From Streptosporangium sp. NBC_01755 (lineage in GTDB: Bacteria; Actinomycetota; Actinomycetes; Streptosporangiales; Streptosporangiaceae), in assembly GCF_035917995.1 (NCBI RefSeq), contig NZ_CP109131.1, positions 4,030,001 through 4,094,000 of the forward strand: DNA of 64,000 nucleotides, read 5' to 3'. The translations under genes and the position numbers were made by a program. Of the stretch, positions 53,271 to 56,663 are shown piece after piece. The notes below the pieces were generated by a model that worked only from the letters and a program-made list of their open reading frames with translations, was not told the origin of the DNA and searched no databases. Each line of letters starts with the position of its first letter. Within the stretch, counting starts at the first letter, position 1.

Positions 53271-53960
53271 ATGGGCTGGTTGTTCGGCAAGGACAAGACT
53301 TCCATGGTGTCCCCGGAGAACGCGCTCCCGGGTCGTGCCACGAGGATGGCGGTGCCCGGGCGTCATGAGGTTCTCGACGCCCCGCCGGCTCCGCCGTACC
53401 CCGAGGGGAGCGAGATCGCGGACTTCGGCCTCGGCTGTTTCTGGGGCGCCGAGCGCATTTTCTGGCAGACCCCGGGTGTGGTCTCCACCTCGGTCGGCTA
53501 CGGGGGCGGCTACACCCAGAACCCGACCTACGAGGAGGTCTGCACCGGCCAGACCGGTCACACCGAGCTCGTCCGCGTCGTCTTCGACCCGGCACGGGTG
53601 TCCTACGAGGAACTGCTGCGCGTCTTCTGGGAGTCGCACAACCCCACCCAGGGCATGCGCCAGGGCAACGACGTCGGCACGCAGTACCGCTCGGCGATCT
53701 ACCTCCACTCACCCGAGCAGGAGAAGGCAGCCCTGGCCTCGCGTGACGCCTACCAGAAGGTCCTCACCGACTCCGGCTACGGCGCCATCACCACCGAGAT
53801 CGCTCCCGCCGGCGACTACTTCCACGCGGAGCGGTATCACCAGCAGTATCTCTACAAGAACCCCGGCGGTTACTGCGGCATCGGCGGCACCAACGTCAAG
53901 CTGGGTGACCCGTCCGAGTGGGCCGCCTGCCAGACGGGCCTTGTCCCGACGGAGGAATGA
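53271..53960 (+). CDS. msrA: Peptide-methionine (S)-S-oxide reductase MsrA
   Basis: 229 residues; AGGAGG before the ATG. Catalytic Cys in [10 protein letters not shown] (about residue 60), [16 protein letters not shown] and C-terminal G-Y-C-G-I-G-G-T with a resolving Cys. It repairs oxidised methionine with thioredoxin. The 3' end of this gene is copied twice downstream, as described separately. Confidence 0.97.
53886..53921 (+). repeat. msrA 3'-end repeat, copy 1 (inside msrA)
   Basis: 36 bases encoding [12 protein letters not shown]. Copy 2 at 55266-55301 matches it at 35 of 36 positions; copy 3 at 56635-56663 matches its first 29 bases with few changes. Possible integration site within the gene end. 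Confidence 0.9.
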
Positions 53961-54126
53961 CCCTCCAGGTTTCGCCTGTACGGCTCGTGCCCGATTCCTG
54001 AGTACGAGTCGTGCCGTCTGTGTGGTTTCGTCGTCATCCTTGTGTCGATCCGTCGCCCCAGCGCGGGTAGGCGCGCCGGTCCAGGTCTTCGACGGCGCGC
54101 TCGGGCCGGTCGGGCACTGTCGAATG

Positions 54127-54624
54127 TCAGCTTGTGGACAACTCGTCGAAGTAGCCTTTCATCAGGGGGTAATAGTCGGTGAAGTCGGGCTTGGGGGAGC
54201 CTTCGCGCGCAGCCACGAGCATGTCCAGGTAGTACTCCCAGCCGGGACCGATCTCTCCGATACCGTCTTCGCTGACAAGGTGCTGCACGAGCCGCAATTC
54301 CGTCGAACCATCCGTTTCTAACAGCGATAGCTCCAACCGCCAGGCCCCGGACTCATCGGTCATCGACAGGGCCAGCCGCCGCGGTGGATCGCATGCGTCG
54401 ATTCGCATTTCGCACCACGGCATCTGCTCTTCGAACACCATCTGCACCTTGACCGTCCGGCCGGAGGCGGCCTCACCCTCCCACGGCCCGAACCAGAGGG
54501 CCGTCCGGTCGGATTCGGTGATACTGGCCCACACATCCTCGGCGGGTGCGCGGAACGTACGACTGAGGACCAGATCGCTTCCGGTGTCGGTGCGAAACAG
54601 CCGGCCAGTAGGTGTGGGGCTCAT
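54127..54624 (-). CDS. SRPBCC (AHSA1-type) protein
   Basis: 165 residues. START-like fold: V-L-S-R-T-F-R-A-P-A-E-D-V-W-A-S-I-T, W-F-G-P-W-E-G and a C-terminal G-P-G-W-E-Y-Y-L-D-M-L helix. Such proteins are typically co-transcribed with an ArsR-type regulator, as here (4-base overlap). Probably binds a hydrophobic ligand. The pair lies between repeat copies 1 and 2. Confidence 0.88.
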   Translation of the reverse strand: MSPTPTGRLFRTDTGSDLVLSRTFRAPAEDVWASITESDRTALWFGPWEGEAASGRTVKVQMVFEEQMPWCEMRIDACDPPRRLALSMTDESGAWRLELSLLETDGSTELRLVQHLVSEDGIGEIGPGWEYYLDMLVAAREGSPKPDFTDYYPLMKGYFDELSTS

Positions 54625-54983
54625 GCGGTGTTCCTCTTTTCCGGGTCTGCCGTGTCGCGCTTCCGGCGCTCACGGCGGGTTCGATAGACCTCTGTCTCGA
54701 GTGCGTCGAGGCGACGTTCCCAACCGGAGGGGCGGATGAACAGGGCAAGCCATTTGGCGAGCTCACCCAGTTGCTCGGCGTCAAGCACGTAGAACCGCTG
54801 TCGACCGACAAGTTCGTCGTGAATCAGCCCGCTCTCTCGGAGGACGCGAAGATGCCGGCTCACGGCAGGCCTGCTGATCGCGAAGCATCCGGCGATCTCT
54901 CCTGCGGTGAGGCGTTCGTTCCGCAGCATCAGCAGGATCTCCCGCCGCACGGGGTCCGCGATCGCGCCCGCCACCTTGTCCAC
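54621..54983 (-). CDS. ArsR-type helix-turn-helix regulator
   Basis: 120 residues from a GTG. Winged helix: A-D-P-V-R-R-E-I-L-L-M-L...L-T-A-G-E-I-A-G-C-F-A-I-S-R-P-A-V-S-R-H-L-R-V-L-R-E-S-G-L. No metal-binding cysteine pair is seen, so a metal sensor is unlikely; this is the subtype that goes with SRPBCC partners. An 8-bp dyad sits just before the start. Confidence 0.92.
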   Translation of the reverse strand: MDKVAGAIADPVRREILLMLRNERLTAGEIAGCFAISRPAVSRHLRVLRESGLIHDELVGRQRFYVLDAEQLGELAKWLALFIRPSGWERRLDALETEVYRTRRERRKRDTADPEKRNTA

Positions 54984-54990
54984 CCATGAA

Positions 54991-55010
54991 GCGTAACCTA
55001 TCGGTTACGC
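54991..55010. promoter_or_regulatory. Probable ArsR operator
   Basis: GCGTAACC (54991-54998) and GGTTACGC (55003-55010) are perfect arms with a 4-base spacer, 8 bases upstream of the regulator's GTG. On the minus strand TAGGTT within it could be the -10. Confidence 0.6.
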
Positions 55011-55265
55011 GTTTGGCGACCCGTTTGCAGGTGTTTTGCGGATACCGCGGCCTCGGTGGCACCGACTGCTCCTGGCGGCATGGCGGGCGGTGACGATGCA
55101 GGAGGAGATCATCTGATCGGGTTCGGCGACCGGCGGCATCGGCTGTTTCTCCCTGGAGACCCAGGTGAAGTCGAGGCCGACCGACTCTCGCAGCCTGACT
55201 TGAGGCGCCGACAGGAAACCCATCGTCACGCCGTCGGCACCTCGTGGGTTACCACAGCGTTGTTG

Positions 55266-55301
55266 GCACCAACGTCAAGCTAGGTGACCCGTCCGAGTGG
55301 T
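55266..55301 (+). repeat. msrA 3'-end repeat, copy 2
   Basis: Identical to 53886-53921 except one base. Weaker similarity continues upstream to GGTTAC at 55248 with the same spacing as in msrA, so it is a decayed gene end, not a short chance repeat. Confidence 0.9.
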
Positions 55302-55371
55302 GCAGCCCTTGGCGGGGCAAGTCCGGTATCCGGCCTGCTCGCCGTACTCCGGCGGGAGAAAGTGAGGAGGT

Positions 55372-55406
55372 TGACTTGATGACACAATGATGATGTCATC
55401 AAGTCA
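55372..55406. promoter_or_regulatory. Perfect 13-bp inverted repeat ending on the fic start codon
   Basis: TGACTTGATGACA (55372-55384) and TGTCATCAAGTCA (55394-55406) are exact reverse complements with a 9-base spacer. The left arm overlaps a -35-like TTGACT (55371), and TGTCAT (55394), 17 bases later, lies in -10 position 6 bases before the ATG. A repressor bound here would cover the whole promoter. Confidence 0.85.
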
Positions 55407-56554
55407 TGTTGTACCGTACGCCGAAGCTGGACGAAGCCGACCGCCGGGCACTCGAAGAGATCGAGCGGATGCGGTACGACCTGCGCATGCATGTTCGGCC
55501 GCAGACTCGCTGGACCAAGCAGTTGCGTAGAAGTCTCACTGCCAGGGCCATCGTCGGTTCCAACACGATCGAGGGTTACGCGGCCTCCGTTGATGATGTC
55601 GAGGCACTCATGGCTGGGGAGGAACCTCTGGAGTCCAGCGAGAGCACTCGCAGGGAACTGGAGGGCTACCAGCGGGCCATGACCTACATTCAGGGTCTGT
55701 CCGACGCCGGCGATGAGTTCGCTTATGATCTGGGCCTGCTGAACGGCCTCCACTTCATGATCCAGGAACATCACCCGGACAAGCGCCCCGGCCGACTCCG
55801 TCAAGGCCAGGTCTACGTCACCAGCCCTGATGATCCTGCCGTGGCCGCCTACACCGGACCGGATCCCGAGTCGGTCCCGGCTCTCATGGGTGAACTGGTC
55901 GCGTGGCTCAACGAAGGAGACCTCGATGCTCCAGTGCATGTCCGTGCCTCGATGGCGCATCTGAACCTGGTGAAGATCCACCCCTGGGCCGATGGCAACG
56001 GCCGCATGTCACGAGCGCTGTCCACCCTGGTGTTCGCACGAGAGGCACTGATGCCCGCGGAGTTCTCCTCGATCGAGGAATGGCTCGGCAGGGGGCAGAA
56101 CACCTACGCCTACTACCAGGTTTTGGGCGGGGTGGGCGGCCCTGAGTGGAGTCCCGGACGGGACACTCATCCATGGATCAAGTTCTGTCTGCGGGCTCAC
56201 CATATTCAGGCTCAGCAGGCGAAGCGCCGTGTCGATCTGCTGAGCCGTGCGTGGATGGAGTTGTCGGCCGCTACGGCCGCTGCGGGACTCGATGAACGAA
56301 CCGTTTTCGCGCTTCTGCCCGCTTTTTGGGGTTCGCGTGTCCGGCGTACTGTTTATCAGCAGGACGCGGAGTTGAGCACCCAGCAGGCTATAAGGGACAT
56401 CCGAGAACTTTGTCGGTTAGGGTGGCTGGCTCCTCAGGGACAGGCGAGGGGACGCTACTACGTAGCAGGTCCGGTTATGCAACCGGTCCTTTCCTCGGTA
56501 CAGCAATCCACACAGCCCTACATAGATCCATATCGCGATCGCGAGGCGTCCTGA
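55406..56554 (+). CDS. Fic family protein with C-terminal DNA-binding-like domain
   Basis: 382 residues. The Fic motif H-P-W-A-D-G-N-G-R-M-S-R is at about 192-203, with catalytic His and phosphate-anchoring N-G-R. An N-terminal inhibitory motif S-N-T-I-E-G (about 50-55) marks the self-inhibited class. The C-terminal ~110 residues look like a winged helix (S-T-Q-Q-A-I-R-D-I-R-E-L-C-R-L-G-W-L). It probably transfers AMP (or another nucleotide) to a protein. Base composition is less GC-rich than the core genes, and it lies between msrA-end copies, which suggests acquisition. Confidence 0.9.
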   Translation: MLYRTPKLDEADRRALEEIERMRYDLRMHVRPQTRWTKQLRRSLTARAIVGSNTIEGYAASVDDVEALMAGEEPLESSESTRRELEGYQRAMTYIQGLSDAGDEFAYDLGLLNGLHFMIQEHHPDKRPGRLRQGQVYVTSPDDPAVAAYTGPDPESVPALMGELVAWLNEGDLDAPVHVRASMAHLNLVKIHPWADGNGRMSRALSTLVFAREALMPAEFSSIEEWLGRGQNTYAYYQVLGGVGGPEWSPGRDTHPWIKFCLRAHHIQAQQAKRRVDLLSRAWMELSAATAAAGLDERTVFALLPAFWGSRVRRTVYQQDAELSTQQAIRDIRELCRLGWLAPQGQARGRYYVAGPVMQPVLSSVQQSTQPYIDPYRDREAS

Positions 56555-56634
56555 CCTGACACCGGATGGAGTCCACGGCCTCCCGTTCGACGAACTCCGA
56601 GATTGTCGACCCCAACGGCTACTGCGGGATCGGT

Positions 56635-56663
56635 GGCACCAACGTCAAGCCAGGTGACCCGTC
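56635..56663 (+). repeat. msrA 3'-end repeat, copy 3
   Basis: 29 bases match copies 1 and 2 with two differences. The similarity extends upstream to about 56611: translated in frame it reads [17 protein letters not shown], like the MsrA C-terminus but with several silent changes, suggesting origin from a different msrA allele. Confidence 0.85.

Follow-up and report, generated by a model that had tools for sequence, protein, structure and literature searches.

Integrons are the textbook route by which bacteria stockpile small gene cassettes. Their cassettes share one orientation, vary by species and include many toxin-antitoxin genes, and arrays without an integrase occur. Their attC sites are folded and have R''/R' boxes, with exchange at G/TT. 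Elements of the staphylococcal cassette chromosome (SCC) type are tens of kilobases in size. In SCC and the related Enterococcus cassette chromosome (ECC), Ccr large serine recombinases act at the rlmH 3' end on attachment (att) sites with dyad symmetry (PMC6222049). Actinomycete integrative and conjugative elements (AICEs) combine a RepSA-type replication gene and an integrase with an FtsK/SpoIIIE-type transfer protein. Among 144 AICEs, 19 use a serine recombinase, some of them in protein-coding genes (PMC3218068). Here we describe a cassette array at the 3' end of msrA in Streptosporangium sp. NBC_01755, whose genome is a single contig of 8.15 Mb. It lies in the 64,000-nt stretch analyzed (contig NZ_CP109131.1, positions 4,030,001 to 4,094,000; hereafter, the window), to which coordinates refer unless another locus is named. 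Based on the sequence comparisons below, positions 53868-57859 very probably hold three cassettes accumulated by serine-integrase site-specific recombination into the msrA 3' end.

The array appears to work like both SCC/ECC and integrons, yet it fits neither definition. It shares with SCC/ECC a large serine recombinase, direct-repeat att sites with dyad symmetry and a conserved gene whose 3' end is the target. The target is msrA, not rlmH, and most units are about 1 kb and integrase-free, in contrast to a 32-kb ECC (PMC6222049). The large serine integrase found at msrA ends of relatives (hereafter, LSI2) scored 63.1, 53.3 and 28.6 bits against the CcrB, CcrC and CcrA models, below the cut-offs of 900, 900 and 700, and a second serine integrase that also targets msrA (LSI1, 506 aa) scored 23.3 bits against the CcrB model. 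The likeness to integrons lies in the rows of small, same-oriented, species-variable cassettes with many genes of toxin-antitoxin families. The differences are that no IntI was found over the cut-off and that a serine rather than a tyrosine recombinase is implicated, and also that the site lies within a protein gene with its conserved core to the right of the exchange point. The likeness to AICEs concerns the LSI1 elements, not the cassette array, as these combine RepSA with a serine integrase. Among the best matches in the open-licence PubMed Central literature, we found no msrA cassette array and no msrA as a serine-integrase target; "sulfoxide" and "Streptosporangium" do not occur in the main text of the AICE paper (PMC3218068), nor do "msrA" and "cassette" in the available part of PMC9513070.

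The cassette array and its mobility

The array has four sites, with GG dinucleotides at 53886, 55265 and 56635 and in a weaker one at 57821, separating cassettes of 1379, 1370 and 1186 bp. Each site consists of an msrA-like (B-like) left half, the central GG and a right half, which is P'-like in sites 1-3 and resembles a native msrA end in site 4. The first site lies within the 3' end of msrA itself (53271..53960, plus strand, 229 aa; Pfam PMSR, 2.8e-62), the C-terminus of which is of the array ("A") type downstream of the GG. A preliminary description of this DNA had reported three copies of the msrA 3' end, spaced 1380 and 1369 bases apart, that bracket two cassettes. The three copies are real: a repeat search of the window recovered one 62-nt family at 53860, 55239 and 56609, with measured spacings of 1379 and 1370; relative to copy 1, identity is 82% for copy 2 and 79% for copy 3. 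An iterated profile seeded with the msrA copy detected sites 1-3 at E = 1.8e-23, 7.9e-14 and 7.4e-14, far beyond chance. The preliminary description overlooked the fourth, diverged site at 57797-57859, and it described changes in copy 3 as silent; not all of them are, since CTG to CCA in the msrA frame replaces Leu by Pro; the change of CTG to CTA in copy 2 is silent.

All sites and cassettes read on the plus strand. Based on the profile and the linkage register described below, site 1 spans 53868..53953 (GG 53886-53887) and is followed by cassette 1 (53888..55266), which was delimited by the repeat search and Pfam. Sites 2 (55247..55303, GG 55265-55266) and 3 (56617..56664, GG 56635-56636), supported by both the repeat search and the profile, enclose cassette 2 (55267..56636, repeat search). 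Cassette 3 (56637..57822), recognized by Pfam and comparison with the genome G003, ends at site 4 (57797..57859, GG 57821-57822). Site 4 joins the left half of cassette 3, AACGGTCATTGCACACC, which is also the left half that ends the homologous cassette in G003, to the native-type msrA end GGCACAGGCGTGGCCTGCCCGGTCGGCCTG; taken alone this site is weak, scoring 22 bits with the native-type-end profile.

We infer that a circular cassette carrying a (B-like half)-GG-(P' half) site would recombine at GG with the site at the array end. Each insertion would replace the C-terminus of msrA by another coding sequence and rebuild a target-like site downstream, and with the target rebuilt every time, cassettes would pile up head to tail. 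The integrase would be supplied in trans by an LSI2 element, less likely by LSI1.

Comparison with relatives supported the earlier proposal of a small cassette array produced by repeated, site-specific insertions into the 3' end of msrA. When the window was aligned to nine relatives with a native-type msrA end, the alignment stopped at the site, namely at 53890 in five, at 53891 in two and at 53897 in two. The msrA of G013 (locus L126, 15 kb) has a native-type end, one site and no match to the array model, and is apparently unoccupied. The msrA loci of G011 and G009 are 96% identical up to the msrA end, then differ, and then are 95% identical again; their flanks are 94-98% identical, and the difference falls between msrA and the shared downstream genes. 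A secondary array of these two genomes (L042 in G011, L049 in G009) likewise has different cassettes between the same flanking genes, with one unit encoding a MarR-type helix-turn-helix (HTH) protein and a HEPN protein shared at 90% identity. The preliminary description had suggested looking for msrA loci with and without cassettes and for the site next to other cargo, and both were found, the latter at msrA and at further loci. It had also named the absence of the repeats from other msrA junctions, or the lack of any empty site, as findings that would speak against it; the repeats are present at msrA junctions of other strains, and G013 provides an apparently empty site.

The stretch 56635-57831, which covers cassette 3, is 95.4% identical to a unit of G003, and the alignment begins exactly at GG. 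The identity of this cassette is 91% in G010 and 81% in G009, compared with 84.6% (G003), 85.9% (G010) and 86.4% (G009) for msrA with its upstream neighbor. Recent transfer of cassette 3 is likely for G003 and G010, not for G009, judged from these identities. The closest matches of cassettes 1 and 2 (in G005, G018 and G019) had no site within the 3-4 kb examined, thus the mobile form of these two cassettes was seen in the window only.

The arrangement of right halves was compared over runs of neighboring sites, leaving out eleven loci as well as matches that scored below 20 bits or agreed at fewer than 17 of 30 bases. Four runs at contig ends were removed, so that 45 of 49 entered the comparison. 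Of these 45 runs, 23 closed with a native-type right half, which occupied 20 of the 96 remaining positions (Fisher p = 4e-4; runs are not independent). This is as would be expected if new units enter at the target-like end.

The close genomes G001 and G006 (L125 and L051) carry the same large segments at their msrA loci, 95-98% identical and in different order; these segments are not bounded by recognized sites and were kept out of the argument.

The point of exchange and LSI2

The position of strand exchange was examined by linkage between the sites and their neighboring cassettes. We registered 120 of the 127 profile matches and, with pairs defined only by flank matches below 97% identity, compared 184 pairs sharing the left cassette only and 69 sharing the right only with a baseline of 6752 unrelated pairs. 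Left-sharing pairs agreed mostly above the baseline up to core position +2, and right-sharing pairs from +6 onward, which places the exchange within the core GGCACC. In the 181 sites of the run analysis, GG was at core positions 0-1 in 168, with a mild bias as the register was set by references beginning with GG. Tyrosine recombinases normally have an overlap of 6-8 bp. The linkage switch appears too narrow for such an overlap and fits the 2-bp overlap of serine recombinases. The invariant ACC, and then its AC, were tried as the crossover and were replaced by GG once the LSI2 P half was compared. A tyrosine integrase acting via the CACC...GGTG dyad, with CGTCAAGC as the overlap, was rejected because the linkage switch is narrow and lies to the left of CGTCAAGC. 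Phage_integrase matches were detected in 16/16 genus genomes (12 to 55 each), and among the matches listed none was within 20 kb of an array site, as judged by eye.

LSI2 has the Resolvase (PF00239, 2.5e-35), Recombinase (PF07508, 1.5e-11) and zinc ribbon (PF13408, 1.1e-9) domains, and matched the PDB entry 9iu2, "Integrase", at 2.8e-20. In G012, G002, G003 and G008 its gene lies ~7 to 15 kb downstream of msrA, in the latter three beyond the last A-type site detected. The half-site GGTCACATAGATACACGTTGGTA-GG (the P half) abuts the LSI2 start codon and is followed by a native-type msrA end that varies among the four genomes. Allowing up to 4 mismatches in 25, a P half was found beside the start in 13/13 LSI2 loci of ≥82% identity that keep the 5' end, namely G012 (the query), G003, G002 and G008, which defined the motif, and G147, G089, two in G187, G193, G112:C17, G110, G202 and G136; a 74% fragment without the 5' end was left out of this count. 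Five LSI2-like loci of ≤64% identity had the P half with 9 to 11 mismatches (5/5). The GG is present at the P half in 12 of the 13 loci (TG in G110), and all four bases occur at the next position, placing the switch directly after GG. The reverse complement of the P half agrees with the array right half CACCAACGTCAAGCTAGGTGACC at 18 of 23 positions, with a maximum of 14 in 20,000 shuffles. The right half of sites 1-3 thus resembles the LSI2 P' half, and GG is in the center of the dyad.

Distant relatives of LSI2 include phage serine integrases (37-41% identity for the best records), and its matches in the plasmid and phage collections (4 and 36 records, respectively) were all below 60% identity. 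In G012, the LSI2 junction and the site that follows it are separated by a DDE transposase gene (L046:8444-9598).

The window's genome has a 178-aa LSI2 match with 87% identity beside an exact P half (C1:8039929). This locus (L128, G000:C1:8032001-8048000) also has two degenerate native-type sites, away from msrA. No intact LSI2 copy was found in this genome, nor an LSI1-like gene at E 1e-60. With only this fragment of LSI2 and no LSI1-like gene, the window array is at present probably dormant, as in integron arrays bereft of their integrase. Three other serine recombinases of the genome share 27-34% identity with LSI2 and might conceivably act as helpers. The earlier statement that no integrase is present thus holds for the array itself, and it missed that two serine integrase families occupy the msrA site in relatives.

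Competing explanations

Several observations weigh against serine-integrase recombination driven by LSI2. The normal reaction of large serine integrases is that of attP with attB, in one direction, and hybrid sites need a directionality factor. The cassette ends form a hybrid, attL-like site, an unexpected substrate without such a factor, and this is the weakest step; the factor was not identified. Either LSI2 is permissive, or the factor is out of view, or a different enzyme is at work. Neither circles nor excision nor activity have been observed. In the linkage analysis, position +2 leans left-linked (0.84 versus a baseline of 0.73), contrary to the prediction for a GG crossover, position +1 showed no left-linkage (0.84 versus 0.90), and the pairs are not independent. 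The last site was not native-type in 22 of 45 runs. LSI2 was detected in only 14/200 family genomes (E 1e-100 or better), compared with 116 with a site match. Further sites occur downstream of the LSI2 junction in G012, G187 and G202. G061, in which LSI2 had no match at E 1e-100, also shows a P-half junction with another site behind it.

The best-surviving alternative is that the arrays are relics, founded by serine integrases, with cassettes that are no longer moved. It is compatible with serine-integrase recombination as the origin, and the rarity of LSI2, the fragment in the window's genome and the many degenerate sites all fit it. The 95.4% identity of cassette 3 in G003, versus 84.6% for msrA and its neighbor, suggests recent movement instead, and we consider the relic explanation unlikely, though worth keeping in mind.

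LSI1 elements, with a RepSA gene and a serine integrase, were for a time favored as the mover of the small cassettes. The LSI1 survey found 41 places, of which 30 loci were examined; the remaining 11 include two fragments (74% and 81%), and the 81% fragment, in G061, ends ~90 bp from a native-type site. An msrA-3'-like site of the family was beside the LSI1 start in 9/10 loci of ≥73% identity versus 0/20 loci of ≤68%; the tenth, in G004, has a broken left arm only. With the LSI1 of G091 left out of the neighborhood count as it is at a contig start, msrA was upstream on the same contig in 10/10 LSI1 loci (the nine of ≥73% and G005), at a distance of 3.3 to 8.6 kb. Of these ten loci, 9/10 have a site of the family next to the integrase, and RepSA was found in 9/10 (4.5e-162 in G005). 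In G140, the site beside the integrase is of the array A type. These associations support LSI1 as the mover. The exchange of LSI1 is located elsewhere: its element-specific sequence stops at TACCACCAGCARTA, within which the exchange was placed, ~45 bp upstream of GG, and the msrA-side and integrase-side ends have an identity of 0.92 at -50 to -41 and 0.23 at -30 to -21. We thus regard LSI1 as an improbable mover of the cassettes, and msrA seems, based on these junctions, to serve as a target for both LSI1 and LSI2, which are unrelated elements.

The LSI1 element of G005 (L121:7383-10978 region) is 7.3 kb and has the serine integrase and a pSAM2-type RepSA gene at msrA, and such LSI1/RepSA pairs at msrA were seen at ten loci across several genera. 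The plasmid collection had one LSI1 record (65%), an 11.85-Mb Nonomuraea record filed as a plasmid, and the phage collection had no match.

Tandem duplication or homologous recombination among msrA fragments would need no dedicated enzyme, and short repeats such as the msrA-like left halves, some longer than 50 bp, can recombine. Such a process leaves unexplained the unrelated cargo between the sites, the narrow linkage switch, the A-type and native-type right halves behind the same GG and the P half beside 13/13 LSI2 start codons, and alone it would not preserve one 2-bp boundary; we consider it very improbable.

A true integron, with a tyrosine integrase IntI and folded attC sites, is mostly refuted and hardly credible, as the resemblance in head-to-tail ~1-kb cassettes, one orientation per array and many toxin-antitoxin-family genes is set against the lack of TIGR02249 matches over the cut-off in the 16 genus genomes (0/16, with 14 control genomes also 0 and no positive control), the right-linked agreement from +6, by which the conserved core belongs to the following cassette, and the weak consensus fold (-7.99 kcal/mol, covariation term 0.11).

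Cargo, distribution and meaning of the arrays

In agreement with the preliminary description, Pfam showed that the first two copies of the repeat enclose a SRPBCC/ArsR pair and the second and third a Fic gene. Cassette 1 encodes an AHSA1/SRPBCC-type protein (54127-54624) and an ArsR-type protein (54621-54983), both on the minus strand. The genes of the other two cassettes are on the plus strand: a Fic-domain protein (55406-56554; Pfam Fic, 3e-14) in cassette 2, and in cassette 3 a pair spanning 56744-57785, with a MerR-like HTH protein (56744-57346, Pfam) and a protein of 149 aa (57336-57785) that has no Pfam match. By arrangement only, the pair in cassette 3 may be toxin-antitoxin-like.

A stretch of ~100 bp in cassette 1 (55083-55184) has 90-97% identity to places in G006, G001, G005 and G015. 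Related kinase-cluster genes occur in the same msrA-downstream region of G006 and G015, the G006 member being a histidine kinase. The window's genome has a second small array (L034, 9092-10568; G000:C1:3774001-3794000), with two A-type sites ~1.39 kb apart that enclose an HTH_17 gene and a 99-aa gene.

The site family is widespread among relatives. The profile iterated from the msrA copy detected 68 site copies in 21 sequences of the genus, and a sequence-only covariance model had 77 matches in 13/16 genus genomes. A site match was found in 116/200 family genomes, though many are weak and probably merely the msrA end. The site survey of loci omitted nine named loci taken as duplicates of loci already included, and as loci were selected for having matches, the counts of sites and cassettes do not come from random sampling. 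A pattern scan of named genomes found 15 stretches in Streptosporangium, Planobispora, Microbispora, Nonomuraea, Sphaerisporangium and Microtetraspora, and the longest arrays have up to seven sites. Generally, the left halves are msrA-like, some reaching beyond 50 bp, and many sites are degenerate.

The 100 intervals of 450-3600 bp between neighboring same-strand sites had a median of 1196 bp and quartiles of 952 and 1807; this count omitted eleven loci (overlapping loci, LSI1 loci and L128), B-type matches below 22 bits and gaps outside 450-3600 bp. The even spacing that the preliminary description found striking is thus no rule, as the third cassette of the window, at 1186 bp, also indicates.

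The same gene pairs recur in differing orders, at msrA and at other loci of relatives. Recurring cargo includes ParE-like with Phd-like genes, MarR-type HTH protein with HEPN genes, PIN-domain genes, Fic/Doc and Gp49. The 70 cassettes of ≤1.5 kb gave 131 reading frames, 127 of which were compared with Pfam; matches included PIN (14), ParE (9), Phd/YefM (9), Fic (7) and Gp49 (5), and several overlapping HTH families with 7 to 8 matches each. Judged by family, the cargo is often toxin-antitoxin-like, with a toxin-family match in well under half of the cassette frames.

These arrays may represent a serine-recombinase counterpart of the integron, in which integrase-free cassettes with a hybrid att site form arrays that grow, shuffle and spread across Streptosporangiaceae with LSI2 acting in trans. 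We put this wider proposal forward tentatively, as one about as likely to fail as to hold, if not slightly more so. If true, it would add a second, serine-recombinase route with similar cassette size and cargo, and the cassette-array lifestyle would have evolved more than once. The msrA arrays offer a testable case for how integrase-free cassettes may be moved through hybrid att sites, and for why such arrays gather toxin-antitoxin pairs.

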